From Candidatus Obscuribacterales bacterium (lineage in GTDB: Bacteria; Cyanobacteriota; Vampirovibrionia; Obscuribacterales; Obscuribacteraceae), in contig JAGVKB010000079.1 of the NCBI GenBank assembly GCA_020050835.1, positions 1 to 41,060 of the forward strand: DNA of 41,060 nt, read 5' to 3'. The notes below the pieces were generated by a model, which was given only the letters and a program-made list of their open reading frames with translations, was not told the DNA's origin and did no database searches. The position numbers and the translations under genes are program-made. This document shows positions 10,024 to 31,700 of the stretch, piece after piece. The number at the start of each line of letters is the position of its first letter. Within the stretch, counting starts at the first letter, position 1.

Positions 10024-10893
10024 ATGACAATTGCATGGGCAAATTGGAACGGACAGGAGATGCCTCTGGATGAGGTCCGGGTTCCAGCTCTCGACAGAGC
10101 ATTTTTGTTTGGCGATGCGATTTATGAGGTGGTGCGAGTCTACAGCGGGCGTCCCTGGCGATGGCAGGAGCATTTGAGCAGGCTGGAATCCAGCCTGGCT
10201 GGCATCGGTATCGCCGGAGTCGACGGAGCGACCGTCGCCGCCCGAGCGCTCAACACTTTGCAGAACAGCGGAATCGCAGAGGGTCTGCTTTACCTCCAAA
10301 TCACGCGCGGGGAAGCCCGACGTACTCATCATTTTCCGGCTGCCTGCATGCCTAATGTACTCATCTATGTCGACGAGTTTCCCGACTCATTACGGACATC
10401 CCGGGAAACCGGCGTGGCAGCGATTACCTATCCGGACCAGCGCTGGGCGCGCAACGAGCTGAAGACGACCAGTCTTATGGCAAACTGCCTGGCGGCACAG
10501 GCGGCAACCGAGGCCGGTTGTTACGAGGCTATCTTGATAGATACGCAAAATCGTGTGACGGAAGGCAGCCACACCAGTGTCTTTGGGGTGCGCGACGGTA
10601 AGGTGATAGTGTCACCGGCAGCACCAAACATCTTGCCGGGCATTACCAAACAGCAAGTGCTGAGCTTGTGCCAGCAAGCCGAGATCGCCACTCAAGAGGG
10701 CAAGCTCACGGTCCAGGACCTGGCTACGCTTCAAGAGCTTTTCTTGACCGGCACGCCCGAAGAGATTCTGCCGGTCACAATGGTGGACGGACGCAAGATT
10801 GCCGACGGCTTTCCCGGACCGGTAACGAGAAAATTGCAGGAGACCTTTCAAAGGACATTAGCCTTATGGTTGCAAGCACCGGTGACACAATGA
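10024..10893 (+). CDS. Class IV PLP aminotransferase, D-amino-acid transaminase-like
   Basis: A 289-residue fold-type IV aminotransferase. The PLP lysine is in NELKTTSLMANCLAAQ (Lys near 147), followed by GCYEAI and the phosphate-binding Glu/Ser region VTEGSHTSVFGV. The pattern ELKTTSL-x-N-x-LA-x-Q followed by GCYEAI resembles D-alanine transaminase more than branched-chain transaminase; an aminodeoxychorismate-lyase-like role is less likely. The family moves an amino group between D-alanine/D-glutamate and 2-oxo acids, feeding peptidoglycan synthesis or D-amino-acid breakdown. Its stop overlaps the start of the OPT transporter by ATGA, so the two are translationally coupled. Stereospecificity cannot be proved from sequence. 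Confidence 0.82.
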   Translation: MTIAWANWNGQEMPLDEVRVPALDRAFLFGDAIYEVVRVYSGRPWRWQEHLSRLESSLAGIGIAGVDGATVAARALNTLQNSGIAEGLLYLQITRGEARRTHHFPAACMPNVLIYVDEFPDSLRTSRETGVAAITYPDQRWARNELKTTSLMANCLAAQAATEAGCYEAILIDTQNRVTEGSHTSVFGVRDGKVIVSPAAPNILPGITKQQVLSLCQQAEIATQEGKLTVQDLATLQELFLTGTPEEILPVTMVDGRKIADGFPGPVTRKLQETFQRTLALWLQAPVTQ

Positions 10894-12734
10894 CTGAGTC
10901 GACAATCGACAACGGCGCGAGCGCCTCCGACAAGATAGCGGCAGCCGAAGAGCACTGGCTGAAAAACGTCTATCAAGGCGACAAAATGCCGCAGCTGACT
11001 ATGCGAGCGATATTGATCGGCGGCGTGCTGGGCTCATTGATGTCGGTATCAAACCTGTACACCACCTTAAAAGTAGGCTGGTCGTTCGGTGTGGCGATCA
11101 CCGCTTGCGTTATGTCTTACGTAATTTGGAAAGTCGTTCGACTCGTGCTTCCGAAGTCTTCCGACATGACGATTCTGGAAAACAACTGCATGCAATCGAC
11201 GGCATCGGCAGCCGGATACTCAACCGGCGCCACGCTTGGCACCGCCTTTGGTGCACTCCTTTTGATTACCGGCCAGCACATGAATTGGCAAACCGTCTTG
11301 ATTTGGACGCTGGTGACAGCATTGCTCGGGGTATTTCTGGCTGTGCCGATGAAACGTCAGATGATCAATGTCGAGCAGCTACCGTTTCCGAGCGGCATTG
11401 CGGCCGCCGAGACGCTCAGGAGCCTTCATGGCGCCTGCGTAGAGGCCGTACAGCAAGCATACGCACTGGTGGCGGCGCTGGCCGGTGGAGCAGTGGTCGG
11501 ACTGCTCGGCAAGGGCAATTTCGCCTGGCAGCAAAAGCTCGGATTGAAGCTGCCGGAGCTGCTTCCATTCGAAATGAAGCTACAGGGGGTGCAAGGCAGC
11601 GCGCTGCCGGGATTTGGATTTGAGCCTTCCGTGCTGTTGATTGGAGCCGGGATGATAGTTGGAATGCGCGTCTCGATTTCGATGCTCATTGGCTCGGCAA
11701 TCCTCTACTTTCTGGTTGGGCCGGCCATGATCAACGCCGGACAGATTGAAGCTCCCGCCAAATTGATTCGCTGGGCCCTCTGGACAGGCACAGCCATGAT
11801 GGTTACATCCGGGCTGACCGCTTTTGCGGTGCAATGGAAGGTGATCGCCCGCTCATTTTCATCGCTCAGAGGCGGCAACCAGTCGAAGCCAGCCAGCTCA
11901 GATATCAGCAAGATTGAGGTGCCGCTCTCCTGGTTTATCGCCGGAATGGTGCCTTTAACTATCGCGATGATTGCACTTGAATATGTCGCTTTCTCCATCT
12001 CGATACCGCTTGGTTTATTGTCAATCATCATGAGCTTTCTCTTGGCGCTGGTCGCCTGCCGCACGACCGGCGAGACGGACACCACTCCGATCGGCGCGAT
12101 GGGAAAGATAACTCAACTTACCTATGCGGCGCTGGCACCGTCGAATATAACGACCAATCTAATGGCGGCTTCCGTCACCGCCAACACGGTCAGCTCGGCG
12201 GCCGATCTGCTAACCGATCTGAAAAGCGGCTACCTGCTTGGCGCAAATGCCAGGCAGCAGTTCATCGCACAGTTTATCGGGGTTTTCTTTGGAACAGTCG
12301 CCGTCGTGCCGGCCTGGTATTTGATGGTGCCAAACAAGGCTACGCTCGAGGCGTTCAACCCACCGGCGGCAAATATGTGGAGAGCAGTAGCAGAAGCGCT
12401 TTCTCAGGGCATACAGTATGTTCCGATTTCGGCTCGCTGGGGCATTTTGATCGGCGGAACTGTCGGCATATTGCTAGCACTACTCGACCATTTTGCGCCG
12501 AAGCTGAGACAATTCACACCATCGGCGATGGGACTCGGCTTATCTTGGGTGGTCCCGTTCCAGAATTCTTTTTCGTTTTTTATCGGCGCATTGATCGCAT
12601 CGCTCTGGTCCAAGCGATCGCATCGCAATGCCACACTATTCATGATACCAGTGGCCTCCGGCGCGATCGCTGGAGAATCACTGGCATGCGCAATAATCGC
12701 GATGATCAATGCTTTATCTGCGCTCGGCAAGTAA
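10890..12734 (+). CDS. OPT-family oligopeptide transporter
   Basis: A 614-residue polytopic membrane protein of the oligopeptide transporter (OPT) superfamily, which imports peptides or metal chelates, usually driven by protons. Family hallmarks include the first helix region GGVLGSLMSVSNLYTTLK, the NNCMQSTASAAG segment, and PFPSGIAAAETLRSLHG after the first helices. Many hydrophobic segments extend to the C terminus. The frame is open further upstream inside the aminotransferase gene, but the true start is ATG 10890, overlapping the previous stop by four bases; ATG 10866 is an alternative. Coupling to a D-amino-acid-type transaminase suggests uptake and use of peptides, perhaps containing D-residues, which is inference. 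Confidence 0.92.
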   Translation: MTESTIDNGASASDKIAAAEEHWLKNVYQGDKMPQLTMRAILIGGVLGSLMSVSNLYTTLKVGWSFGVAITACVMSYVIWKVVRLVLPKSSDMTILENNCMQSTASAAGYSTGATLGTAFGALLLITGQHMNWQTVLIWTLVTALLGVFLAVPMKRQMINVEQLPFPSGIAAAETLRSLHGACVEAVQQAYALVAALAGGAVVGLLGKGNFAWQQKLGLKLPELLPFEMKLQGVQGSALPGFGFEPSVLLIGAGMIVGMRVSISMLIGSAILYFLVGPAMINAGQIEAPAKLIRWALWTGTAMMVTSGLTAFAVQWKVIARSFSSLRGGNQSKPASSDISKIEVPLSWFIAGMVPLTIAMIALEYVAFSISIPLGLLSIIMSFLLALVACRTTGETDTTPIGAMGKITQLTYAALAPSNITTNLMAASVTANTVSSAADLLTDLKSGYLLGANARQQFIAQFIGVFFGTVAVVPAWYLMVPNKATLEAFNPPAANMWRAVAEALSQGIQYVPISARWGILIGGTVGILLALLDHFAPKLRQFTPSAMGLGLSWVVPFQNSFSFFIGALIASLWSKRSHRNATLFMIPVASGAIAGESLACAIIAMINALSALGK

Positions 12735-15610: not shown

Positions 15611-16897
15611 ATGAATGTCAAGGAGAAAGATCAAGTTTTGGTGGCTATCAGCGCGCTCGGCAGGCGCGTAACGGCCGCTGATGTCGCAACCAAGACCGGA
15701 CTTCCGCTGACGATTACCACAAAGCAGTTGAACACGATTGCATCCGAAACCGGAGGCGACCTTCAGGTAGCCACCACCGGCGATATCGCCTACTGTTTTA
15801 GGCCTGGTTTCCAGAGCGCCTATCTCGCCAAAGGTTTTAAGCGCATTCTCGGGCAGGTAGCCTCGAGCCTGTTCAAAGTCGGCTTCTATATCCTGAGAAT
15901 CTCCTTCGGCGTGATGCTGGTGGTCTCGTTGATCACGATTGTCATCCTGTTCTTCATTGTAATGTCGACACTCCAGCGCGGCGGCAACGACGATGACGAC
16001 CGCGGTCCGTCTTTTCATTTCGGCTTCTTTGATTATCTGATTTTGCGAGACATCTTCTGGTGGGGCTCAATGACTACGCAGCCCGACCGCTATCGGCTTG
16101 ACGAATCGGCTTACCGCCAACGCCCGAAAAGCAATTTCTTTCTCAACTGCTTTTCTTTTCTGTTTGGTGACGGCGATCCCAACGCTCACCTGGAAGACAG
16201 GCGCTGGCGCTCGATTGCTGAGGTGATCAAGCGACAGAAGGGTGTCGTGACGGCCGAACAACTTGCACCATATACGGGGGTAAATCCCCGCAATGAAAAT
16301 GGCGTTCTGCCGGTCTTAGTCCGCTTCGACGGACGGCCGGAGGTGACCGACAGCGGCAATATCGTCTATGTCTTTCCTTCCCTGCAAGTCTCCGCCGGCG
16401 GACAGCTGGCAGCGAAGCATGACGAGGACCGAGCAACGAGCTTTCGTTTTGTCGGCACCGCCAGCGAGACGCAACCATTTCTCTACGAATTTCCCTGGAA
16501 GTTCAGCAACACTGCGCCCGATGCACTGGTGCCGGTAGGTATATTGGCCGCGGTTAACTTCCTGGGCGCGTGGTGGCTCTACTTTCAGCTCAACAATCCG
16601 CTTGCCACCGGGCTGCAATCGCTGGCTCCGCTCATCTATGCGCTGGTCCTCTACGGCACATTGTTCGTAGCGTTGCCGGCAGTCAGATGGCTCGTCCAGC
16701 AAGTTTTCAACTCGCGCATTCAGATGCGCAATGAAAGAGCAAGTCAATTTGCCGAAACGCTCGTGAATCCTCCGGCGGAGCTTCAAACGAAGTTAGAGGA
16801 GGCCGAAAGCTTCAAGCAAAAGGAGCAGCTAATCAGTCCGGATTCAGTTGTTTACACAACCGAGAAAGATGCTCTCGAACAGGAGTTCGATCGTTAG
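15611..16897 (+). CDS. Conserved membrane protein of the cyanobacterial/plastid At5g03900-type family
   Basis: A 428-residue protein. The N-terminal 75 residues look like a winged-helix or small alpha/beta domain (VTAADVATKTGLPLTITTK). A hydrophobic segment follows at about 85-120, then an Asp-rich stretch. Next comes a conserved block, FLFGDGDPNAHLEDRRW, then GVVTAEQLAPY and LPVLVRFDGRPEV. Two more membrane segments lie at about 300-365, and the C terminus is charged (VVYTTEKDALEQEFDR). From memory these blocks match the chloroplast protein At5g03900 and its cyanobacterial homologues, which are annotated as iron-sulfur-related on weak grounds. The biochemical role is unknown. ATG 15611 has no ribosome site; translation is probably leaderless. 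Confidence 0.8.
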   Translation: MNVKEKDQVLVAISALGRRVTAADVATKTGLPLTITTKQLNTIASETGGDLQVATTGDIAYCFRPGFQSAYLAKGFKRILGQVASSLFKVGFYILRISFGVMLVVSLITIVILFFIVMSTLQRGGNDDDDRGPSFHFGFFDYLILRDIFWWGSMTTQPDRYRLDESAYRQRPKSNFFLNCFSFLFGDGDPNAHLEDRRWRSIAEVIKRQKGVVTAEQLAPYTGVNPRNENGVLPVLVRFDGRPEVTDSGNIVYVFPSLQVSAGGQLAAKHDEDRATSFRFVGTASETQPFLYEFPWKFSNTAPDALVPVGILAAVNFLGAWWLYFQLNNPLATGLQSLAPLIYALVLYGTLFVALPAVRWLVQQVFNSRIQMRNERASQFAETLVNPPAELQTKLEEAESFKQKEQLISPDSVVYTTEKDALEQEFDR

Positions 16898-17591: not shown

Positions 17592-18830
17592 TCAGGCGAG
17601 TTTTTGTAGATCGGCCTTCAGCTCGGCCATGGTGGCGTGCCTGTCCGCCGGGTTCTTCTCCATCGCTTTGAAAACGACTGCCTCGTAAGCCGGTGGCAGA
17701 GCAAGATGCGGGTTCACCGTTGCCAGCGGTTTTGGCTTGTCGTTGAGATGCATCAAAACTGTATGCAGTACCGTTTGCCCCTCAAAAGGCTTGAGGCCGG
17801 TTAGCGCCTCGTACATGATGCAGCCGATTGAATAAATATCGGATCGACCGTCCAACTCGAGCGCTTGCGACTGCTCCGGACTCATATACAGCGGGCTGCC
17901 GAAAAACTCTCCCGGTCTGGTTAGCTTCTCGACTGCGCCTTCCGGCGCGACGATTTTGACGATTCCAAAGTCAAACACTTTCACCACATCTTGCGAATTG
18001 TCGTCTTTGAGCAACATGATATTGCTTGGCTTCAAGTCCCGGTGAATAATCCCCTTACCGTGAGCGTGCGTCAGACCGTCGCAGATCTGCGAAAATATAT
18101 CGACGAAACGCTTTCCAGATAAAACACCTTGATCGGCCAACACTCTGTCCAAGCCGCTTCCTTGCAGATAATCCATTACCAGGAAAGGCTGTCCGGATGC
18201 CGTGACGCCGAAATCATAGACTGATACCAGATTGCCATGCGAAAGCAGACTGGCGGCTTTCGCCTCTCGCTCGAAGCGCTTGATGCTGATTGGATCGGAT
18301 AACTGCTGAGCATTTAAAACCTTCACGGCATAAAGGCGATCCAATGTCGTGTGTTTGGCCAGAAAGACATTTCCCATGCCTCCTTTGCCTAATTCTGAGA
18401 CAATTTCATAACGATCTGCCAGCACAAGCCCGATCGACCCGCAGGCGGTACCGCCTGCTTTTTCTCTATTTGCAGCCCGCTTGAAGATCGACTTGATCCG
18501 GTTCGACAGCTCCTGCAATTCGAACGGCTTGGCCAGATAATCATCGGCCCCGGAGCCAAGAATCTCCTCCTGTTCGCCCACTAATTTACTGCCGGCCGTT
18601 ACGAGGACCGGCGAATGCCGGCCAGCCGCGCGAAATCTCTTGCAAAGCTCCAAACCACTGATGCCCGGGAGATCCCAGTCCATGATCACCAGGTCGTACT
18701 CCTTAAGCGACAGGCGCTCGCGAGCGTCCCATCCGTTACCCACCGCCTCAACTGTGTAAGACTGAGAAGACAACCATTCAATTACTGGCACAGACCATTT
18801 CTGGTCGCTTTCCACATAGAGTATCTTCAT
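17592..18830 (-). CDS. Receiver domain-Ser/Thr protein kinase fusion
   Basis: A 412-residue soluble signalling protein. Residues 1-115 are a response-regulator receiver: acidic residues in YVESD, the phospho-acceptor in IMDWDLPG, Thr in LVTAGS and Lys in YLAKPF. After a short linker, residues about 137-410 are a Hanks-type kinase: glycine loop GKGGMGNVF, AVK lysine, catalytic HRDLKPSN, DFG and SPEQ. All key residues of both parts are present, so a histidine kinase could switch Ser/Thr phosphorylation. No transmembrane helix or PASTA domain is visible, unlike many bacterial kinases. GGAG lies 9 bases before ATG 18830. No histidine kinase or phosphatase is adjacent. Confidence 0.92.
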   Translation of the reverse strand: MKILYVESDQKWSVPVIEWLSSQSYTVEAVGNGWDARERLSLKEYDLVIMDWDLPGISGLELCKRFRAAGRHSPVLVTAGSKLVGEQEEILGSGADDYLAKPFELQELSNRIKSIFKRAANREKAGGTACGSIGLVLADRYEIVSELGKGGMGNVFLAKHTTLDRLYAVKVLNAQQLSDPISIKRFEREAKAASLLSHGNLVSVYDFGVTASGQPFLVMDYLQGSGLDRVLADQGVLSGKRFVDIFSQICDGLTHAHGKGIIHRDLKPSNIMLLKDDNSQDVVKVFDFGIVKIVAPEGAVEKLTRPGEFFGSPLYMSPEQSQALELDGRSDIYSIGCIMYEALTGLKPFEGQTVLHTVLMHLNDKPKPLATVNPHLALPPAYEAVVFKAMEKNPADRHATMAELKADLQKLA

Positions 18831-18955: not shown

Positions 18956-21900
18956 TCAAGCTCCGGATAAGTAGCGCTCGAGCCGCCTCAAAGCCACCTC
19001 AAATCGCTCCGGAGTCAAACTGAAGCAAAGCCTTACCCAACCGGAAGTGCGCCCCCATGCAGGCGGATTGACCAGTAAATTCTCCCGCCGCAAAAGGTCG
19101 TCGGCCCGCTCCGCAAGCTTTGCCAGAACGAACAAGCCACCGCGCTCTCCGGTCGACTGTCCGTCATCCAGTTCATATCTTCTAAGGAGATTCATCAGCC
19201 TTTCGCGCTGTTCGCTCAGCTGCCTGCGAGCTGCCAACAAGTAAGAACTAACGCTCTCCTTCTCACGGTCGATATCCATCAATTGATGAGCAGGCTGTTC
19301 GAGAAAGGCAGAATAAATAGCGTCCCAGGTGCGCAGCGTTGACTTAGGCGGCAGCTGCACGAAACTCTGCAAGCGCCGCGCCAAGCCGGCATCAGGTGCC
19401 AGGAGAAATCCACAGCGCAATCCGCCGGCGGCAAACGCTTTCGACAAACCGTCGGTCAAGAAGAGATGCGATGCCGCCGAGGACGAAGCGAAGCTGAGCG
19501 CAGGATCGGTCCAATCGCCTTGCTTGGAATCGCTAAGTAGGAAGAAGACCTCATCGGCCAATATGTAAATACCGCTTTGTTGGCAATACTGCCCGAGCGC
19601 CCGCACCGTCTCCGGCGCGTAAAAAAGTCCGCTTGGATTGTTGGGTTGGGTCAACCAGAGTAGATCCGGCTGGCTGTCCATGCGCCTTAAATCTTCCAGG
19701 CTCATTAGAAATCCGCCGGAAGGCTCAGTCGGAATTCGCTCGACCAGCCCGCCATGCTCGAGCACCAGCGGATAGCACGGTCCGTACGAGCCGTCCGGTA
19801 AGGCCACTTTTGGCTTCCGTCCGAGCATCTCCTTGAGCAGCCGGACCACTGCACCCAACAGAGGAAAGACGCCCTGACCAAGCACCAGGCGCTCTGGGCT
19901 TACTTCGACCGCTCGCGTCGACTGCAGATAGGCAGAGATCCGAGCGGCCATGAGGGCCGGCAAACCGTCCATCGGCGCCTCGAGAAAACCCTTGATCAAT
20001 CCTTTGACGAGCAGGTCGGGAAGTGGATACTCAAACTCTCCGTAGTCCAAGCGGATCAAGTCGGGCTCCAGCAAAGAAACCGGTTTGGCGTCAAAAACCG
20101 GATCGCTGGCAGTAAGCATAAAGGTCGCTGACAATTCAGGAGTTTCAGCCGGTCCTGAAATTGGAGCGCTCACCTCCTCTTCTGGAAATGCGAAGTCCAA
20201 AAGCCCATCGAACAGCCACTCATAATAAAGCTGGGTCGGTCTGGCAATGCGCGAATAGGTGAGCTCGGCGCCTACCTCCAATCCTGGCGACCACTTTTCC
20301 GGCGCATTCAGCAGAAAGGACAGCTCGAGATCGGGAAAGACAGTGTTTCGAATCAGCCCGTAGAGCAAAACCAGGTTGGCGGGCAACCTTTGTTGAGAGG
20401 CCAGGCGGACGAAAGCGTTGGAGTTCAACTGCGAACCTATGTCAAAGTGAGCGGAGTCATCGATCAGATACCAACGATCGCCGTGCTTGCCTGCTTGAGC
20501 CGACAGAGCGCTCAAGAGTGTCGGTGAGGGATTATCGAGCTGGCGGGGAGAGATTAGCACCAGCGCTGGTGACAACAAGTCGTCCAGTTGCATCAGTTCG
20601 GACAGATCATCGTTGCCGACGATGATTTCCAACCCGTGGCCAGACAGAACATCATGATAGACAGGCAACAAGCAATGCGAAACAAGCACCTTGCTGCCTG
20701 CGGTCGTCACCATCGACAGTATCATCTTTAGCAATTGAGCCCGTTCGGGAGCGGCAAACAACCGCTCCGGCTCGACAAACCAGTGACAATAAACCTTGAG
20801 GAAGCGAGACAACCGCTCCCGCAATTCGAGGTCACCGCGTTCGTGCGGATAGGAAAGCGTGCGGGTCCGGAGCAGATCGCTCGACAGGCGCTCCAGGAAA
20901 CTGATCTGCTCTTCGTTCACCCTTGAGAGGTCCAGCTCTTGCCGCAAAGTGTCCAATTGCAACAGATGCAGATGCTTGATCAATCCAAAAGTCGGCATCT
21001 CCCAGCGAGTCGACGCCTGATAGACCAGCAGATCGTGATAGATGAATTCACCTCTTGCCAGCAAATTAACGGCAGTTGATGCCGATATCGGTAAACCAGA
21101 ATCACGCGACATGAAAAAATTGAACTCAATTCCATGCTGCCTCTCCAGAGCGACCAGCGATGCCAGATCTGTGTCGTCAGCCTGGCGAATACGGCGGCTC
21201 CAAAGCAGCGCTGGCTCGAAGCCCCGCCGCCGAAACATGGATTCAATCGCTACCGGTCCGGGCCGGCCACCGAGGACTAGGGTTACCTTACCGCCCGGTT
21301 TCAAGCACAATTGCGCCTGCTCGAGCGTTCTGGCAATGAGCGGCAGACCAAAGCGGTCCTCCAAGATTCCTTGCTGAAAGCAATAATTACTGAGATCGTA
21401 TAGGTCCCGGTCAGACAACCGCTCCGGCTTGCGCTCGCCGGCTTCGGGGTTCGGATGGAGCACTTGCGGAATGCAACCGATAACATGCTCGAACTGAGCC
21501 TCGTCTGACAGCGGTTTAGACAGCAAGTCGGAGACGGATGCTGAAAACGCCTTGGTGATAGCAATGCCAAACTGGCTGAGGATCAGTGTTCCATCGGGCT
21601 CGGAACCGTTCAGCCAGGCATTGAACCGGGACAAAACCACTGCCACCCGATTGATATCCAGCCCGACTATCTCCTTCACCCTGGTTCTCAGGAGCAACAG
21701 CAGGCTGATCCAGCCGGAGCCGCAGCCCAGTTCGACCACACGCGAGCCGGCGAATCGCTCCGGGTCCTTCAACAGCCCTTCGGCAAACGTTTTCCCCCAG
21801 TGTTCCGGAGAGAAGACAGCCGGATGCAAAAGCAGCTTGATCGGGCGCTGCGAACCCGGCACGGAAACTTCTTTCAGACTGAGCGAACCATGCTGCCTGG

Positions 21901-22042
21901 CAGCGACGGCTGAAGCAAGCTGATGCACAAAGGCAATCGCGTCCAGGTCGGCGGGCAGACGGTCGAGCCGGTCGACTAACGCTTCGAGACGGTCGACAAT
22001 CGTCTGCTCGTTGGCTAGCAACTCCTCAACCGTGGAAATCAT
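18956..22042 (-). CDS. Plant-type methionine S-methyltransferase (methyltransferase plus aminotransferase-fold fusion)
   Basis: This 1028-residue protein has the full architecture of plant methionine S-methyltransferase (EC 2.1.1.12), which makes S-methylmethionine from methionine and SAM. A SAM methyltransferase domain comes first (VVELGCGSGW near 102-111; GCIPQVLHPNPEA near 188). LSNYC, GILEDRFGLPLIAR and a GGRPGP block follow, all close to my memory of the plant enzyme. Residues about 355-620 look like a degenerate aminotransferase fold with no PLP lysine. Residues about 655-1028 are a class I/II aminotransferase-like domain (WLTQPNNPSGLFY, YILADEVFF, LSKAF with Lys near 868). AAAGGG lies about 8 bases before ATG 22042; the frame opens 11 codons earlier. 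It is probably monocistronic. Substrate is inferred from homology. Confidence 0.85.
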   Translation of the reverse strand: MISTVEELLANEQTIVDRLEALVDRLDRLPADLDAIAFVHQLASAVAARQHGSLSLKEVSVPGSQRPIKLLLHPAVFSPEHWGKTFAEGLLKDPERFAGSRVVELGCGSGWISLLLLLRTRVKEIVGLDINRVAVVLSRFNAWLNGSEPDGTLILSQFGIAITKAFSASVSDLLSKPLSDEAQFEHVIGCIPQVLHPNPEAGERKPERLSDRDLYDLSNYCFQQGILEDRFGLPLIARTLEQAQLCLKPGGKVTLVLGGRPGPVAIESMFRRRGFEPALLWSRRIRQADDTDLASLVALERQHGIEFNFFMSRDSGLPISASTAVNLLARGEFIYHDLLVYQASTRWEMPTFGLIKHLHLLQLDTLRQELDLSRVNEEQISFLERLSSDLLRTRTLSYPHERGDLELRERLSRFLKVYCHWFVEPERLFAAPERAQLLKMILSMVTTAGSKVLVSHCLLPVYHDVLSGHGLEIIVGNDDLSELMQLDDLLSPALVLISPRQLDNPSPTLLSALSAQAGKHGDRWYLIDDSAHFDIGSQLNSNAFVRLASQQRLPANLVLLYGLIRNTVFPDLELSFLLNAPEKWSPGLEVGAELTYSRIARPTQLYYEWLFDGLLDFAFPEEEVSAPISGPAETPELSATFMLTASDPVFDAKPVSLLEPDLIRLDYGEFEYPLPDLLVKGLIKGFLEAPMDGLPALMAARISAYLQSTRAVEVSPERLVLGQGVFPLLGAVVRLLKEMLGRKPKVALPDGSYGPCYPLVLEHGGLVERIPTEPSGGFLMSLEDLRRMDSQPDLLWLTQPNNPSGLFYAPETVRALGQYCQQSGIYILADEVFFLLSDSKQGDWTDPALSFASSSAASHLFLTDGLSKAFAAGGLRCGFLLAPDAGLARRLQSFVQLPPKSTLRTWDAIYSAFLEQPAHQLMDIDREKESVSSYLLAARRQLSEQRERLMNLLRRYELDDGQSTGERGGLFVLAKLAERADDLLRRENLLVNPPAWGRTSGWVRLCFSLTPERFEVALRRLERYLSGA

Positions 22043-22368: not shown

Positions 22369-22962
22369 ATGCGCAGTTTCGACCGAACTCTGAAATACCG
22401 AAGCAACCGCGCCTTTGCACTTGCAGCGATGCTGGTCTTGCTGTTGGGTCTACCGGCCCAAGCCGGAGCAGTCGACAGCAACTCCTTGATTCGCACCGGC
22501 TATCAACAGATTTGCCATGGTAACAACGAACAGGCGATCGAAACGCTCAGCGCCGCCCTCCGGGTCGACCCCAATAGTGTGTATGCCCGGCGGTACTTGG
22601 CCTATGCCTTGTTGCAGTCCGGACTGGCTGTCCAAGCGGCAACTCAGTTCGAAGCAGTCGGCAAGCTTTCGCCAGAGACATCTTCGGACTTAGCTCTACT
22701 GGGGGACGCTTACTTCTACTCCGGTCAATATCACAAGGCCTTGAAGAGCTACCACCGAGCCTTGAGCATGGACGCTGCCCTGGACCAGGCTCGCACCGGA
22801 TTGGTGCACACTTATGTGGCGCTCGGTGACACCACTCACGCTACATCAATTTGCCACCAAGCGCTGCAACAGACCAAGGCTGCCTCGGCACACAAACAAT
22901 ACGTAGAGCTGTTGCGAGACATAACTGAAAGCCAGAAGGCTCCGGAATTTCGTACCGAGTGA
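22369..22962 (+). CDS. Exported TPR protein, TadD-like (module A)
   Basis: A 197-residue protein with a basic N-terminus, a long hydrophobic stretch (FALAAMLVLLLGLPAQAGA) that reads as a signal peptide, and four to five tetratricopeptide repeats (NNEQAIETLSAALRVDPNSVYARRYLAYALL, then GQYHKALKSYHRAL). It opens a four-gene module of the same order as the tadD-E-G end of Tad loci, where TadD is a TPR lipoprotein needed for pilus assembly. No lipobox Cys is visible here. It is a clear paralogue of the protein at 28227-28865 (shared ARRYLA, LRSGLAVQAA-like and GDAYFY segments). The next gene starts 5 bases after the stop. Confidence 0.8.
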   Translation: MRSFDRTLKYRSNRAFALAAMLVLLLGLPAQAGAVDSNSLIRTGYQQICHGNNEQAIETLSAALRVDPNSVYARRYLAYALLQSGLAVQAATQFEAVGKLSPETSSDLALLGDAYFYSGQYHKALKSYHRALSMDAALDQARTGLVHTYVALGDTTHATSICHQALQQTKAASAHKQYVELLRDITESQKAPEFRTE

Positions 22963-22967
22963 AAGAA

Positions 22968-23495
22968 ATGCGTAGACTAGTAAAGCAAAGAGGTTCAACC
23001 ATGGCCGAGCTCCCACTGGCCATCTGGGTGCTGTTCATCGCAATCACTATGCCGATGGTAGACTTGGCTACAATCAGCCTGCGCTCCACCTTCCTGGTCG
23101 CAGCCGCTCATGAAGCAGCACACGCCGCCGCCCGCGCCAAAACATTCAAAGTGTCGATCGATGAAAGCACGCCGTCGGCAGAAAGTCTCGCTCTCGATAC
23201 GGTGACCAGCAGCCTCCAAAGATTTAGTGAGGTAAAGGCCACCTCCACTGTCACACGGATAGTGACGACGAACATCGCCGACGGAACCACTGCTCGCCGG
23301 ACTGCACCTTTGACCCAGCCGGCTGATACTGACAGTAATACCTACTCAATCGAAGTGGTCGTGACCGGGCAGGTCAATCCACTATTCACTTTCAACAACG
23401 CCCTGTTCGGACAGCTCCCTGGTCTGACGGGCCCGATCACTATATCCTGCGCTGCTGAGCAGCTCTCTGAATATCCGCAAGGATTGAATCAATAA
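22968..23495 (+). CDS. TadE-like pseudopilin (module A, first copy)
   Basis: A 175-residue protein with a short basic leader followed by G-STMAELPLAIWVLFIAITMP. Gly at -1 and Glu at +5 form the prepilin-peptidase motif of TadE/TadF minor pilins. The helix is followed by ALHAAA-type sequence (AAAHEAAHAAARAKTF), also typical of TadE. The remainder is a Thr/Ser/Val-rich beta-type domain with few Cys. ATG 22968 is chosen because it gives the same 14-residue distance to the motif Glu as in the paralogue at 28869; a GTG at 22959 overlapping the previous stop is possible. Confidence 0.82.
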   Translation: MRRLVKQRGSTMAELPLAIWVLFIAITMPMVDLATISLRSTFLVAAAHEAAHAAARAKTFKVSIDESTPSAESLALDTVTSSLQRFSEVKATSTVTRIVTTNIADGTTARRTAPLTQPADTDSNTYSIEVVVTGQVNPLFTFNNALFGQLPGLTGPITISCAAEQLSEYPQGLNQ

Positions 23496-23552
23496 GTTAG
23501 CCGCTTGGCGGGGACTCAGCCTGAATGTCGAAGGGCAAGGAGAACATAAATC

Positions 23553-25331
23553 ATGTTTAGAAACGCTCTCCGGACGAAGTCCGGTCAAACCATGATAGTC
23601 CTCGGTCTGGTTATCTCCGTGTTCTTGCTGCTTCCGATCGGCTTATTCGGATTCGAAGTCAACCGAATGGAGATCGCTCGCCAACAACTGAGAGTGGCTT
23701 GCGATGCAGCAAGCCTGGCAGCGGCTGCCACTCTAGCCAGCTCGGACATTCTCGATCCGGCCGAAGCCCAGACCAAGGCGATCGAAACTGCCTTGACGAC
23801 CTTTCAACAAAACGCAGTAGTCGGCACCAGGTTGAGCGAAACAGTAATTGCAGCCACCGGCGACGATGTACCGACCGCCAATCAAGCACTCATCTTTCTA
23901 GAATTTCTCGATCCGCACAACGACAACTCGCCGGTGAGCCTGGGAGACCCCAAAGGCAAGATCATCAGAGTAAACGGCATCTTCGGCCTGGAGCCGGCCT
24001 TTGGCAAGTTTCTCGGGCTGACATCGGTGCCGGTCAGAACCACTTCATCCGGCGGAGTGCCGATGCTCGATGTCGCTCTCTGCTTCGATGTCTCGGCCTC
24101 AATCGACGATCAAACGCCGGTCACTTTCGTGCGCAGACGATGGAACCCAACGACCGGCAGAATAGTCTACAACACAGCATCGACTGCGTCTGGCTCGCCG
24201 GCCGGAACGCTGGCGCAGGGCAAAATATTCGACATTCTCGGACCGCCCCCGACCGGCTCCTCAGTGGACGGCATCTTCCCGCAACACCTGTCATCCACCA
24301 ACAGCAGCCAGAGCACGTACGACCTTTACTTCAGTGAAGTGAGCGGGGCCTCCGGCTCTGCAGTCGGACTGCGAGGCACCACCAATGCCGGCTCACCACC
24401 GGGCAACTGTCCTCCCGGCAAGGCCGGCATAGGCAATTCGCGAACATTTACCGACTTAGTAGTAAATATCGACGGAAAGAACCAGTTCGCCGGCTTGACG
24501 ACCTCGGATGGATACAGCTTTCCAGACACAGCTACGCTAGTTGAAGCGGCCCGCGGCAATCTCGAGAACAACACCGTCTTCAGCAACAGCAAGGCCGGCA
24601 CCGGCCTGCCGGTCAACATCCAGCCGAGAGCAGGCTATCAAGCCACCTACTTCAAGTTGGCTAGCGCCAATGAACATCCGCTTCAAGACGCCAAAGACGC
24701 ATCGGAAGTCTTCTTCACCATCATGAATACCAATACGGACGCTCACTTTTCTCTAGTCGGATTCAGCAACACCGCCGGGACTTCAGCTACTTCCTACGAC
24801 ACTGAGTACAATGTCGATAGTTCTTATACCAAAGCAGGCCAAATCAACTGTCCGGTGCCGTTGATCACGCTCGATGCCACCAAGGGAGTGACAAAGTTTG
24901 ACGAGGTAGTAGCAGCAATGGCACCGACAGTTCCGGTCAGTGGCACCAATATCGGTGACGCCGTCAATACGGCAGTCAATCAGCTGAAAACGAGGTCCCG
25001 ATCGGGAGCCAAGAAGGCGATAGTGGTTTTCACCGACGGTCAACCGACCTCCGGCGGACCGTTGAACGACGACCCCTGGACCAATGCCCGTAAAGCCGCA
25101 GTCAACGCCAAGAACGCCGGAATTGCCATTTACACTATTGGTCTGGCGCAAACTCCGGCGATTATTCCCGGCGAAACCGCAATTCTAAACGACACCAACC
25201 CAAACCAGAGCACGGGCGGCATCGCGGCGATCGCCGGCAATGGTGGAAAGTTCTTCCTGGTGACCAGAGTAGAAGATTTGCGCCTTACCTTCGAAAACAT
25301 CGCACGACAACTCGTGCAACTGGTGAAATGA
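23553..25331 (+). CDS. TadG-like von Willebrand factor A protein (module A)
   Basis: A 592-residue surface protein. It starts with SGQTMIVLGLVISVFLLLPIGLFGFEVNRMEIARQ-type TadG N-terminal sequence: a single hydrophobic anchor followed by an Ala-rich helix (ACDAASLAAAATLA). The prepilin position +5 is Val rather than Glu, so it is probably not processed. A vWA domain begins near residue 170, with the metal-binding DVSAS (near 179). A roughly 195-residue insertion then separates it from the rest (NTNTDAHFSLVGF near 390; VVFTDGQPTSGG near 490). The C-terminal end, ENIARQLVQLVK, is nearly identical in the paralogue at 29396. AAGGAG lies 9 bases before ATG 23553. Confidence 0.85.
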   Translation: MFRNALRTKSGQTMIVLGLVISVFLLLPIGLFGFEVNRMEIARQQLRVACDAASLAAAATLASSDILDPAEAQTKAIETALTTFQQNAVVGTRLSETVIAATGDDVPTANQALIFLEFLDPHNDNSPVSLGDPKGKIIRVNGIFGLEPAFGKFLGLTSVPVRTTSSGGVPMLDVALCFDVSASIDDQTPVTFVRRRWNPTTGRIVYNTASTASGSPAGTLAQGKIFDILGPPPTGSSVDGIFPQHLSSTNSSQSTYDLYFSEVSGASGSAVGLRGTTNAGSPPGNCPPGKAGIGNSRTFTDLVVNIDGKNQFAGLTTSDGYSFPDTATLVEAARGNLENNTVFSNSKAGTGLPVNIQPRAGYQATYFKLASANEHPLQDAKDASEVFFTIMNTNTDAHFSLVGFSNTAGTSATSYDTEYNVDSSYTKAGQINCPVPLITLDATKGVTKFDEVVAAMAPTVPVSGTNIGDAVNTAVNQLKTRSRSGAKKAIVVFTDGQPTSGGPLNDDPWTNARKAAVNAKNAGIAIYTIGLAQTPAIIPGETAILNDTNPNQSTGGIAAIAGNGGKFFLVTRVEDLRLTFENIARQLVQLVK

Positions 25332-25343
25332 GGTAAGAAGACC

Positions 25344-25871
25344 ATGTACGTGTCAACAGCCGGCTGTTTGCCACTACCAAACAACTTCCGCATCAGTCGA
25401 AAAACGGCTGCTGGAGGAAAGCTGCGGCGGAGGCTCGGACATGTCCTGGTAGAGCTTTCAATGATAATAATGTTGTTGGCGGTTGTGGCGGTGCTGTGCG
25501 CTAATGTAGGAATCATGTCACTGGCCTCATCAATGAACGACTCGGCTTGCCGCGATGCAGCTCGAGCAGCCGCGCAAGCGAGCAACCGCACCACGGCGAT
25601 CAGCATGGCACAAGCTGCGCTCAAGGCTCATAGTACAGACGGTTATTTTGTATCCCAGCCGACCATCGATACTTCCGACTTCGTCTATGAAGACTACTCG
25701 GGCAGCCCGCCAGACAACACCAGTCCATATGTGCAGGTCACCACCTCTTCGACCGTAAGAGTGCCGGCACCAATTTTGTTTTTCGGGGCGAAATTTGGTA
25801 AGGACGGCACAATGACCTTCAATCGAACATACACCTTCCCAATCGTAAGAACGACCCTCTATCTAAACTAG
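25344..25871 (+). CDS. TadE/TadF-like pseudopilin (module A, second copy)
   Basis: A 175-residue protein that begins 12 bases after the vWA gene with GAGG upstream. A 31-residue basic leader is followed by G-HVLVELSMIIMLLAVVAVLCANVG; Gly at -1 and Glu at +5 again match TadE-family pseudopilins. RDAARAAAQASN and a beta-rich tail (VRVPAPILFFGAKFGKDG) follow. It is distinct from the first TadE-like protein but closely matches 31227-31700. The leader is about 17 residues longer than in that paralogue, so a downstream start is conceivable. In Tad loci a second TadE-like protein (TadF) sits in the same position. Confidence 0.8.
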   Translation: MYVSTAGCLPLPNNFRISRKTAAGGKLRRRLGHVLVELSMIIMLLAVVAVLCANVGIMSLASSMNDSACRDAARAAAQASNRTTAISMAQAALKAHSTDGYFVSQPTIDTSDFVYEDYSGSPPDNTSPYVQVTTSSTVRVPAPILFFGAKFGKDGTMTFNRTYTFPIVRTTLYLN

Positions 25872-25981: not shown

Positions 25982-26551
25982 TTACCCCCTATGATGATGC
26001 TTGCGAGCTCCGCCCTCTTTTGCCCCCATGCACCCTTTGAGCATCTGCAGGCGGATCTCCTTGCGCTGCTCGTTAGTCAAGACGTCGAGGCCGGAGAGCT
26101 TTTTGTCGAGCTTGAGATTGGCCAGTTCTGCCTTTTGATCGTTTACCCTGCTCTGTAGATCTTTCACCTTTTGTTTGTCCAGGGACGGCTGACTGAGAAG
26201 ATCGCGCAAGTCTCGCTCACTCGATTTCAAGGCGAGCATCTTTGGTCCGGCGTCATTCAAAAATTGCTTCTTGATACTGAACAGCTTTTCATACTGCTCG
26301 TCAGTGAGCGCAAGTTCGCCTTGAAGCGCGGCCAAAGGGGAGCCTGCTCTGCCCATACCACGCCCGACAGCGCCGGGTCCACCCGGCATCGGCGGCAGCG
26401 AGGCCACCAGGTTGGAGTCTTCCGTCTGAACTAGATCGCCATCGAGCGCCACGTCAGTATCTGGTATCTCAAGCTGCGCAAATGCCGGTAAAAGGCCGGA
26501 GATAATGGCGGACAGCACAACGGCAACGATTGCTTTGTTCTTTATAGTCAT
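25982..26551 (-). CDS. Spy/CpxP-like periplasmic protein
   Basis: A 189-residue exported protein. The signal peptide runs through VVLSAIISGLLPAFAQ. A Gly/Pro/Met-rich segment (PGGPGAVGRGMGRAG) precedes a long helical part. The LTxxQ family motif appears as LTDEQYEKL and LTNEQRKEI, typical of Spy/CpxP proteins, which act as envelope chaperones or stress and metal sensors. The tail ends in a His cluster (KHHHRG), which could bind metal. GGAG lies 10 bases before ATG 26551. Its position between the two Tad-like modules suggests a possible role in folding envelope proteins, but this is inference. No Cpx two-component genes are near. Confidence 0.8.
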   Translation of the reverse strand: MTIKNKAIVAVVLSAIISGLLPAFAQLEIPDTDVALDGDLVQTEDSNLVASLPPMPGGPGAVGRGMGRAGSPLAALQGELALTDEQYEKLFSIKKQFLNDAGPKMLALKSSERDLRDLLSQPSLDKQKVKDLQSRVNDQKAELANLKLDKKLSGLDVLTNEQRKEIRLQMLKGCMGAKEGGARKHHHRG

Positions 26552-28226: not shown

Positions 28227-28865
28227 ATGTACCAAGCCGGGGGGCGTCTTTTGGTGGGACCAGTTTTGATTCGGGTAGCTCGTTTGATACCAGCACGAAT
28301 AAGAATGCAAGCAGGCATGCTCGCCGCAGCCTTGCTGTTTTTCGCGCCAGCCGGTGGGGCTTTCACTCAAGAGCTCTACAACAAGCTGGTTGTAGGCTAT
28401 CAGCAGCTGGTTGTAGGGGACAACGAGGCAGCGACCGCTACATTCATCGCCTGCCTCAAAATGAGCCCAGGCAACATCGAAGCCAGAAGATACCTGGCCC
28501 ACGCTTACTTACGGTCAGGGCTGGCGGTACAAGCGGCTGTTCAGTTCGACATCGTGCTCAAAATGGCACCGGGAGCCGCCCATGATCTCTCCTCATTGGG
28601 TGATGCTTACTTTTACACCGGCAATTACGATTGGGCTTTGCAGTGTTATAACGCCGCGCTCGAAAAGGACGAGAAGCTGGACATCGCACGCACCGGCATG
28701 GTTCACACTTATGTAGCGCTCGGCGACAACTACAGAGCAGGGGCGATCTGCCTGCAAGAGATCAGTAAAAAGGACAATCAGAACAATCGGGCGGTATACG
28801 AGCAGATCTTGAAAAACCTTCAAGAAGACCCGGAAAAGGCGCCGCCAGTAAAATTGGGTGAATGA
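28227..28865 (+). CDS. Exported TPR protein, TadD-like (module B)
   Basis: A 212-residue TPR protein, paralogue of 22369-22962. After a basic start comes a hydrophobic signal segment (MLAAALLFFAPAGGAFTQ) and then TPR units (NEAATATFIACLKMSPGNIEARRYLAHAYLR; GNYDWALQCYNAALEKD). The shared segments ARTGMVHTYVALGD and GDAYFYTG make the paralogy certain. The start is uncertain: ATG 28227 has no Shine-Dalgarno and sits beside ATTGTT/AACAAT arms, while an in-frame TTG nine codons in (28251) follows GGGGGG, and Met 27 would also give a good signal peptide. The next gene starts 3 bases after its stop. Confidence 0.8.
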   Translation: MYQAGGRLLVGPVLIRVARLIPARIRMQAGMLAAALLFFAPAGGAFTQELYNKLVVGYQQLVVGDNEAATATFIACLKMSPGNIEARRYLAHAYLRSGLAVQAAVQFDIVLKMAPGAAHDLSSLGDAYFYTGNYDWALQCYNAALEKDEKLDIARTGMVHTYVALGDNYRAGAICLQEISKKDNQNNRAVYEQILKNLQEDPEKAPPVKLGE

Positions 28866-28868
28866 GAA

Positions 28869-29396
28869 ATGAAAAGAACACGTACTAAATCAGGCACAAT
28901 GATGGCTGAGTTTCCGCTAACCATGTGGGTCTTGTTCATTTTGATTACATTGCCGATGATCAACCTGGCGATTGTCAGCCTGCGCACAACCTTCATCCTT
29001 GCCGCCGCTCACGATGCGGCGCACGCGGCCTCCCGCTGCAAGACTTTCAAGACCGCATTAAACGGCAGCAATCCCTCGGCGACTGAAGCCGCCACCAGCA
29101 AAGTTTCAGATGTGGTCAGCCACTTCACCGGAGTCAAAGTCAGCACAGTGGTGACGAAAATCGTCGTCACCAACATCAACTCAGCCTCGACCACTCGCTC
29201 GGCTGATCCGCTCAAAACCACTCCTGACACCGACTCCAACACATACAGCACCGAGGTAGTGGTGACAGGAACGATCGATCCATTGCTCTATTATCAAGGA
29301 GATCTGCTTGGGAGCGTACCGGGCTTATCAGCGCCGATCACCATGTCCTGCGCCGCCCAAGAATTTTGCGAGTATCCGCAAGGTCTTACCCAATAA
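28869..29396 (+). CDS. TadE-like pseudopilin (module B, first copy)
   Basis: A 175-residue protein equal in length to its paralogue at 22968 and similar along its whole length. MKRTRTKSG is the basic leader; the cleavage motif is G-TMMAEFPLTMWVLF, with Glu at +5. Then come the hydrophobic helix and AAAHDAAHAASRCKTF. The C-terminal domain ends in APITMSCAAQEFCEYPQGL, closely matching APITISCAAEQLSEYPQGL-like sequence in module A. Its TAA overlaps the ATG of the vWA gene (TAATG), so coupling is tight. A structural or assembly role in a Tad-type fibre is inferred. Confidence 0.82.
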   Translation: MKRTRTKSGTMMAEFPLTMWVLFILITLPMINLAIVSLRTTFILAAAHDAAHAASRCKTFKTALNGSNPSATEAATSKVSDVVSHFTGVKVSTVVTKIVVTNINSASTTRSADPLKTTPDTDSNTYSTEVVVTGTIDPLLYYQGDLLGSVPGLSAPITMSCAAQEFCEYPQGLTQ

Positions 29397-31216
29397 TGAA
29401 CTCCGACGGAGGGATTCACCAACTAATGCTCCATCAGCCCCAACCCAAGCTCAGGAAACAGGCTCGCCGCCAGACCGGACAAGCGATGGTCGTTCTTGGT
29501 CTGGTCCTGTCCGTCTTCCTGGTTTTGGTTCTGGGACTTTTCGGATTTGAGATTCACAGAATCGAACTTGCCAGAGAGCAGCTCCGGGCAGCCTGCGATG
29601 CGGCCAGTCTTTCGGCGGCAGCAACCTTGGCCAGCTCGGACAACCTCAACCCGACACTGGCACACACGACGGCGATCAACACCGCACTAACCACCTTCCG
29701 TGAGAATCTTGTGATCGGCACTGCCCTTTCGGCAGCCAGCCAAGCCGCAAGCACCAACGATGTTCCGTCCGCCGATCAGGCGCTTCTTTTCTTCGAATTC
29801 CTCGATCCGCACAACAACAATGCAGTCGTTCCACTCGGCGACTCGCGCGGAAAGATCATCAAAGTAGACGGCACTTTCGGACTGGTGCCGGCCTTTGGAA
29901 AGTTTCTCGGAATCAACTCGACGCCGGTCAGAACGACCTCCTGGGGTGGCGTGCCGAATCTCGACGTCGTGCTGTGCTTTGACGTGTCTGCATCAATCGA
30001 CGATCAGACACCGGTAACCTTCGTCAAAAGACAGTGGGATGCCGGCAACGGCAAAGTGATTTACACGGTGGTCTCTACCTCCGCCGGGGCTCCAGCCGGA
30101 GCGCTTGCGCAAGGAAAGATTTTCGATATCCTTGGCCCGCCCGCGACAGGCTCATCGGTCAATGCGCTGCCACCGCAGCAACTGACAGCGTCAAACAACG
30201 GACAGAGCACCTATCCGCTCACCTTCAGCGAGCGCTCCCTGGCTTCAGCTGGTCTGCGAGGAGCCACCAATGCCGGTTCTCCGCCGGGCAATTATCCCCC
30301 AGGCACAGCTGGCACCGGCACGGCTCGCACTTACACAGACCTGGTCGTAAATCTGGACGGCAAAGACATTTTCGCCGGCGTCACCACCGCAGACGGCTTT
30401 GCCTTTCCGGACCTGGCTACCGTTGTCGAAGCGGCGCGCGGCAATCTCGAGGATGATACCGTTTTCACTAACAGCAAGGCCAACACCGGTGTTCCGGTGA
30501 CAATCACTGCCAAAGCCGGTTACAAGGCGGCATATCTCAAACTTGCAGCAGCCAATGTCCACCCACTCAGCGATGCTCAGTTTGCTGGCCAGGACTTTTT
30601 GACGATTATGAACACCAATACGGACGCGCATTTCTCGATCGTGACTTTTACGACCGATGCCGGTACATCGGCCACCGACACATACAATACAAACAACGTC
30701 GATTCTACTTATGGGGCTGGCGGCAACGGCAGTTTCCCGACCCCGATGATTGCGCTCAACTCGACCGACGGTCAAACCAATTACAGCACCTGCTCTCAAG
30801 CTTTGCCGACGACAGTGGCGATCAGCAGCACCAACATCGGCGACGCGGTCAACACGGCGGTAGCCCAGTTGAAGAACAACAGCAGAGCAGGCTCAAAGAA
30901 GGCAATCGTGGTCTTCACAGATGGTCAACCAACGGCTGGTGGTCCGCTCGATTCAGACCCCTGGACGAACGCACGCAAAGCAGCTTCAAAAGCCAAGACG
31001 GAAGGAATTCCAATCTACAGTATCGGCTTGGCGCAGAACGCTGCAATCATCCCCGGTGAAACAGCAATTCTCAACGACACGAATCCAGACGCAACTAGCG
31101 GCGGCATCTCTGCAATAGCCGGAAATGGCGGTAAGTTCTTCCTGGTAACGAAAGTAGAAGACTTGCGATTCACCTTCGAAAACATCGCGCGCCAGCTTGT
31201 TCAGCTGGTCAAGTAA
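29396..31216 (+). CDS. TadG-like von Willebrand factor A protein (module B)
   Basis: A 606-residue paralogue of 23553-25331. It has the TadG N-terminal anchor (RRQTGQAMVVLGLVLSVF; Val at +5, so no processing expected), an Ala-rich helix, a MIDAS DVSAS near residue 197, and the same long insertion before NTNTDAHFSIVTF. VVFTDGQPTAGG and the terminal FENIARQLVQLVK also match. Identity looks high by eye in the insertion and tail. Start choice: ATG 29396 overlaps the upstream TAA; ATG 29426 would remove 10 residues, and GGAGGG lies about 14 bases before it. The vWA fold usually binds ligands through a metal ion, so an adhesin-like tip role is plausible. Confidence 0.83.
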   Translation: MNSDGGIHQLMLHQPQPKLRKQARRQTGQAMVVLGLVLSVFLVLVLGLFGFEIHRIELAREQLRAACDAASLSAAATLASSDNLNPTLAHTTAINTALTTFRENLVIGTALSAASQAASTNDVPSADQALLFFEFLDPHNNNAVVPLGDSRGKIIKVDGTFGLVPAFGKFLGINSTPVRTTSWGGVPNLDVVLCFDVSASIDDQTPVTFVKRQWDAGNGKVIYTVVSTSAGAPAGALAQGKIFDILGPPATGSSVNALPPQQLTASNNGQSTYPLTFSERSLASAGLRGATNAGSPPGNYPPGTAGTGTARTYTDLVVNLDGKDIFAGVTTADGFAFPDLATVVEAARGNLEDDTVFTNSKANTGVPVTITAKAGYKAAYLKLAAANVHPLSDAQFAGQDFLTIMNTNTDAHFSIVTFTTDAGTSATDTYNTNNVDSTYGAGGNGSFPTPMIALNSTDGQTNYSTCSQALPTTVAISSTNIGDAVNTAVAQLKNNSRAGSKKAIVVFTDGQPTAGGPLDSDPWTNARKAASKAKTEGIPIYSIGLAQNAAIIPGETAILNDTNPDATSGGISAIAGNGGKFFLVTKVEDLRFTFENIARQLVQLVK

Positions 31217-31226
31217 GAGGTAAAGG

Positions 31227-31700
31227 ATGAAAGGACGGACAACGAACCGAAGCCGGCGCAGCGTTCTAGGTCACCTGGTGATCGAGCTTTCCATGATTTC
31301 CTTTTTGATCGTAGTGGTTTCGGTGCTTTGCGCCAATATCGGCATCGTATCACTGGCGACATCGCTCAATGATGCGGCCTGCAGAGACGCCGCACGCGCC
31401 GCGGCCCAAGCGAGCAACTCCGCCTCCGCTCTTAAGCTGGCGCAAGCGGCGATCAAAGCCCACACGACAGACGGCTACTACATCACCGTTCCAACCGTTG
31501 ATTCCAGCAGCTTTGAATACGAGGATTATGCCGGCAGCCCGCCGGCCAATACGAGCCCCTACGTCAAGGTGACCACCACCGCTCAGGTGCGCATACCGGC
31601 GCCGATCTTGTTCTTCGGCGCAGAATTCAGCAAGACGGGCACAATTACCTTCACGAGAACGTACAATTTCCCGATCGTAAAGACTCAGCTCTACTTGTAA
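31227..31700 (+). CDS. TadE/TadF-like pseudopilin (module B, second copy)
   Basis: A 157-residue paralogue of 25344-25871. A basic leader (MKGRTTNRSRRSVLG) precedes the cleavage site G-HLVIELSMISFLIVVVSVLCANIG, with Glu at +5. RDAARAAAQASN, DGYYITVPTVDSS and PAPILFFGAEFSKTG follow the module A protein nearly residue for residue. GAGGTAAAGG lies about 6 bases before ATG 31227. It closes module B; a roughly 180-base non-coding stretch follows before a convergent TPR gene. Confidence 0.82.
   Translation: MKGRTTNRSRRSVLGHLVIELSMISFLIVVVSVLCANIGIVSLATSLNDAACRDAARAAAQASNSASALKLAQAAIKAHTTDGYYITVPTVDSSSFEYEDYAGSPPANTSPYVKVTTTAQVRIPAPILFFGAEFSKTGTITFTRTYNFPIVKTQLYL

Follow-up and report, generated by a model that had tools for sequence, protein, structure and literature searches.

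A probable full-length, plant-like methionine S-methyltransferase of Candidatus Obscuribacterales with an aminotransferase domain that looks PLP-competent

What the aminotransferase-like half of plant methionine S-methyltransferase (MMT) does has, to our knowledge, never been settled. The locus described here encodes a probable full-length version of this enzyme in a bacterium. The gene lies in a 41,060-nucleotide stretch of DNA (the window; contig JAGVKB010000079.1) from a 7.0-Mb genome of Candidatus Obscuribacterales (Melainabacteria), which belongs to the cyanobacterial lineage but is non-photosynthetic. This bears out the bacterial host assumed in an earlier sequence-only reading. Translation of the open reading frame gives 1028 residues with no internal stop, and a Shine-Dalgarno-like AGAAAGG precedes the start codon (ATG, 22042) at a normal distance. 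No Rfam match was found in the window. All plant comparisons below use a provisional Arabidopsis MMT sequence and are themselves provisional.

The sequence-only reading had proposed a methyltransferase followed by a degenerate aminotransferase fold and a class I/II aminotransferase-like domain, and profiles and fold matches agree on this three-part architecture (Table 1). The motifs that it quoted are found at residues 189-201 (GCIPQVLHPNPEA), 228-238 (EDRFGLPLIAR) and 258-263 (GGRPGP). The AlphaFold model of the whole protein, made with an alignment of 31 sequences, has a mean pLDDT of 87.9. With a profile of homologues, residues ~65-345 match the MmtN structure 7vvv over the whole N-terminal domain (E 1.2e-17). 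At the other end, Aminotran_1_2 (PF00155) matches residues 690-1021 with E 1.2e-28, and residues 636-1028 align with prephenate (6f5v) and aspartate aminotransferases at Z 41.7 and rmsd 2.4 over 364 residues. The region between (residues 346 to ~635) has no Pfam match; modelled alone with AlphaFold it reaches a pLDDT of 88.6 and aligns with the large domain of prephenate and aspartate aminotransferases at Z 19.3 and rmsd 2.9 over 210 residues (VIA-align). Its PLP-lysine position is Lys, Arg, His or Tyr among 37 bacterial sequences, so this half looks dead. With one aminotransferase half that looks live and another that looks dead joined in a single chain, the two may form an in-chain pseudo-dimer.

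Table 1. Coordinates in the window of the MMT gene, its domains and site residues, and two neighbouring genes.
Feature	Position	Strand	Remarks
MMT gene	18956..22042	-	1028 aa from an ATG; stop codon 18956-18958
Residues 1-345	21008..22042	-	SAM-dependent methyltransferase domain, MmtN/MMT family; profile match to MmtN 7vvv
Residues 346-632	20147..21007	-	Degenerate fold-type-I aminotransferase large domain; AlphaFold, VIA-align
Residues 633-1028	18956..20146	-	Complete class I/II aminotransferase domain; Pfam PF00155 1.2e-28, fold match
GCGSG, residues 106-110	21713..21727	-	SAM motif I (GxGxG); glycines invariant
GCIPQV, residues 189-194	21461..21478	-	C190 aligned to MmtN Cys121 (SAM carboxylate contact)
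GGRPG motif, residues 258-262	21257..21271	-	Alignment
N802	19637..19639	-	PLP-site asparagine; invariant
D830	19553..19555	-	PLP pyridine-nitrogen aspartate; invariant
K868	19439..19441	-	Putative PLP Schiff-base lysine; invariant in 37/37 bacterial homologues
R876	19415..19417	-	PLP phosphate arginine; invariant
R1004	19031..19033	-	Substrate alpha-carboxylate arginine; invariant
Response regulator + Ser/Thr kinase gene	17592..18830	-	Directly downstream of MMT, same strand
Spy/CpxP-like (LTXXQ/Metal_resist) gene	25982..26551	-	Commonest MMT neighbour

The sequence-only reading had also held that bacterial MMTs are much shorter and have no aminotransferase part, and here it was mistaken, for full-length plant-like MMTs with a dual-domain structure have been published as Group III from some Deltaproteobacteria and Oligoflexia (Peng et al. 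2022, PMC9135737, citing Williams 2019). The Group III genes are not linked to related genes, and their purpose is unexplained according to the same authors (PMC9135737). The protein of the window has an MmtN-type methyltransferase with GxGxG, a C-terminal aminotransferase domain and, at 1028 aa, the class size of about 115 kDa, and, as in Group III, genes for DMSP, NRPS or methionine functions are not linked to it. It differs in its host, since Melainabacteria are not named among the Group III hosts in the main text of PMC9135737, and in its clade, which is separate (100/100) and 27-31% identical to a second bacterial clade. Because Peng et al. already describe Group III, the Obscuribacterales MMT is a new, deeply split branch of the known full-length bacterial MMTs. 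In the methyltransferase tree the full-length proteins stand together, with the single MmtN that was included on a very long branch, and the architecture agrees. MmtN from Roseovarius indicus (7vvv), which has been solved and assayed (PMC9135737), is alike in its methyltransferase domain, motif I and Asp69/Cys121 equivalents, but it has 305 aa and no aminotransferase half, uses other methionine-contact residues and sits in DMSP gene clusters. The single-domain MmtN proteins of Groups I and II (about 300 aa) are ruled out by the length and the aminotransferase half, and Group I also by the lack of DMSP synthesis or NRPS genes among the neighbours.

MMT is present in 37 of 53 Obscuribacterales genomes, nearly always full-length and at one locus each (two were reported in two pieces), so the reading frame is no product of chance; the carriers include a second Obscuribacterales family, whose proteins are about 42% identical. 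Samples of other genomes from across the phylum gave none (0/291; 0/385 in a profile search). A MAG labelled as Proteobacteria (L071) led to a second phylum, and there 13 of 58 genomes encode versions some 1050-1100 aa long; this phylum probably corresponds to the Oligoflexia-type group of Peng et al. A single-sequence scan of the genome contigs gave no MMT match, but an alignment-based scan did; its main pattern, GCIPQV[LI]H, favours Obscuribacterales, so there may be more carriers outside the order than were counted. Among plasmids and phages the searches returned only unrelated aminotransferases.

The reading that we prefer, and consider probable, is that of a full-length Group III MMT whose three domains have distinct roles. 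By homology and its conserved site, the N-terminal domain would bind SAM and methylate methionine on its sulfur, with S-methylmethionine and SAH as products. The middle domain would have lost its own PLP site and, judging from its fold, probably serves as a built-in dimer partner of the C-terminal domain. In the latter the PLP-site residues are all retained, and PLP together with an amino acid is its most likely ligand, while in plants the PLP site would have been lost and the scaffold left. More tentatively, S-methylmethionine in the host would most likely be a sulfur or methyl store or a stress solute rather than part of a plant-like cycle.

The candidate PLP lysine placed near residue 868 by the sequence-only reading is there, and in the alignment K868 falls on the PLP lysine of the Thermus aspartate aminotransferase. 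All five PLP and substrate residues (N802, D830, K868, R876 and R1004) show no variation among the 37 sequences, which come from two phyla, and if positions are taken as exchangeable the chance of finding all five among the 25 invariant positions of the 396-residue domain is 7e-7. PLP binding by the C-terminal domain is thus likely. Within the order, mean identity is 59% for the methyltransferase, 52% for the middle and 51% for the aminotransferase domain, indicating similar constraint. The provisional Arabidopsis sequence keeps 13 of the 25 invariant positions and has Ser, Asp, Leu, Lys and Arg at the five site positions, so that three, the lysine included, are lost: Leu replaces K868, Ser N802 and Lys R876. 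The domain therefore looks PLP-competent in bacteria and, on the provisional sequence, dead in plants; within limited coverage of the literature we found no description of this intact bacterial versus broken plant site. Two loci depart from the common form. At L036:7066-9018 (Obscuribacteraceae), a 651-aa MMT keeps the methyltransferase and a diverged middle domain but has no aminotransferase domain, and this relative can therefore do without the C-terminal part; at L038:6277-9777 an insertion of ~47 residues follows right behind the PLP-site motif DEIFFLLSD.

As to the reaction of the C-terminal domain, no single PLP reaction class stood out among the families listed by the fold searches. Fold and PLP site are like those of prephenate aminotransferase (6f5v) and Thermus aspartate aminotransferase (1gck), but the domain is fused behind a degenerate partner and has Phe where class I/II aminotransferases have the Tyr that touches PLP O3'. 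This residue, F833, is invariant in bacteria and also present in the provisional plant sequence, and by replacing the usual Tyr it may make the domain a poor transaminase. ACC synthases catalyse a gamma-elimination on SAM. The protein could be bifunctional, with the PLP domain acting on S-methylmethionine by gamma-elimination with loss of dimethyl sulfide or by transamination towards DMSP precursors, a possibility that we regard as unlikely but worth weighing. It would fit the intact PLP and alpha-carboxylate residues, the presence of ACC synthases among the profile and fold matches (Z about 37-38), the rank of GntC, a PLP cyclodehydratase (NF041364), as best NCBIfam model, and an SDR reductase (dehydrogenase) gene, present in several genera and at most of its loci immediately adjoining or overlapping the stop of MMT. 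However, ordinary aminotransferases are at least as near in fold and sequence (Z ~41), the GntC score of 97 bits is far under the 415-bit cut-off, which rules out GntC identity itself, the host genome has no SDR orthologue (best match 30%), and the domain is lost in L036. A fuller version, in which bacterial MMTs work in two steps, the N-terminal domain making S-methylmethionine and the PLP domain with its in-chain dead half converting it (e.g., to dimethyl sulfide and a C4 amino or keto acid) while plants retained only step one and the second domain became a scaffold in them, seems doubtful to us. GabR-type regulators have an aminotransferase fold, and the C-terminal domain might likewise bind PLP or an amino acid only to regulate the methyltransferase. 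The tethering to a biosynthetic enzyme and the invariant Phe833, which would slow transamination, are in line with such a sensor, but a pure sensor would not require a strictly invariant catalytic lysine, and we consider this, too, unlikely.

A plant-like S-methylmethionine cycle, in which MMT and a homocysteine S-methyltransferase would buffer SAM and methionine, appears improbable. PF02574 does occur twice in the host genome, once in a frame of 1183 aa, the size of cobalamin methionine synthase, and once in a frame of 686 aa. However, a stand-alone homocysteine S-methyltransferase was looked for in the host genome and none was found, nor is one linked to MMT, and in family f41 (L033-L035, G292-G294) MMT is present while PF02574 and PF01717 were not detected, so that the cycle seems impossible there with known enzymes unless these three incomplete genomes all miss them.

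The neighbourhood offers a loose context for the gene. No homocysteine S-methyltransferase, methionine-recycling, DMSP or NRPS genes were found near MMT, and what recurs across 36 MMT loci, part of which shared descent can explain, is a Spy/CpxP-like LTXXQ protein (24 loci in two families; in f41 it lies 30-129 bp upstream of the MMT gene), a TPR-caspase gene (17 loci in 7 genera, in five of which it lies 18-133 bp upstream), a Ser/Thr kinase family (14 loci in 8 genera, including the window) and the SDR gene mentioned above. The window retains the kinase and the LTXXQ gene. At L048:2290-5838, in an arrangement repeated in several genera, Ser/Thr kinase and TPR-caspase (EACC1-type) genes lie directly upstream of MMT. 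Two paralogous four-gene cassettes in the window (22369-25871 and 28227-31700, both on the plus strand; TPR, an uncharacterised protein of ~177 aa, Tad-like/VWA of ~600 aa, and an uncharacterised protein of ~165 aa; 48-69% identity) flank an LTXXQ-MFS pair, and the first separates MMT from its usual LTXXQ neighbour. In one genus (L044, L046, L054 and L072) MMT is followed directly by weak vWA-like, PP2C-like phosphatase and ~580-aa genes, an order reminiscent of TerY-P stress triads. A 428-aa family without a Pfam match, near MMT in 12 loci, usually adjoins an OPT oligopeptide transporter (15611-16897 and 10668-12734 in the window).

To return to the methyltransferase of the proposed Group III enzyme, 60 of its 345 positions are invariant in the 37 bacterial sequences of both clades, and the provisional Arabidopsis MMT has the identical residue at 59 of them. 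Because of this, synthesis of S-methylmethionine by the Obscuribacterales protein is likely. In MmtN, Asp69 and Cys121 are SAM ligands and Glu127 and Arg132 contact methionine (PMC9135737). The SAM ligands align with D129 and C190, whereas H196 and approximately A201 stand opposite the methionine contacts, and methionine must therefore be bound in another way than in MmtN. The established plant MMT, in the provisional sequence, also lacks Glu127, so methionine may still be the substrate. That the methyltransferase acts on another small thioether or amino acid, the protein being a distant MMT relative, is quite improbable: the unconserved MmtN contacts and the deep split from the plant-containing clade (a branch of about 2.9 changes per site in the methyltransferase tree) would allow it, but the 59 shared positions, among them the motifs GCIPQ, LSNY, ED-FGL-LI, GGRPG and QAxDT common to bacterial and provisional plant MMT, argue against it.

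Homology to the plant enzyme is co-linear and full-length, with an end-to-end alignment of the provisional Arabidopsis MMT over residues 65-1026 (E 7e-85). The closeness to plants claimed by the sequence-only reading stands for the motifs, which agree, and not overall, where identity to the provisional Arabidopsis sequence is 27% for the whole protein and about 34% for the methyltransferase. By domain (methyltransferase, middle, aminotransferase), the provisional plant sequence is 34, 22 and 19% identical to Obscuribacterales and 50, 34 and 29% to the second clade. The methyltransferase tree and the tree of the rest of the protein give the same split (100/100), Obscuribacterales against the second clade plus the plant. 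The link that had been raised between the cyanobacterial lineage and the plant gene is therefore unsupported, because plants join the second clade in both trees. Algae are reported to lack MMT, which occurs from the early land plants onwards (PMC6284425), and a bacterial source of the land-plant gene is therefore worth testing.

With these results the Obscuribacterales, an uncultivated lineage met in metagenomes of soil, groundwater and sludge, join the organisms that are likely to make S-methylmethionine, from which dimethyl sulfide can arise. Judged by the provisional sequence, the plant enzyme is nearer to another bacterial group than to the Obscuribacterales. The bacterial set suggests that the aminotransferase half began as a working PLP domain whose site plants have lost, and with the PLP site intact in bacteria, the job of the second half of MMT is open to direct experiment.
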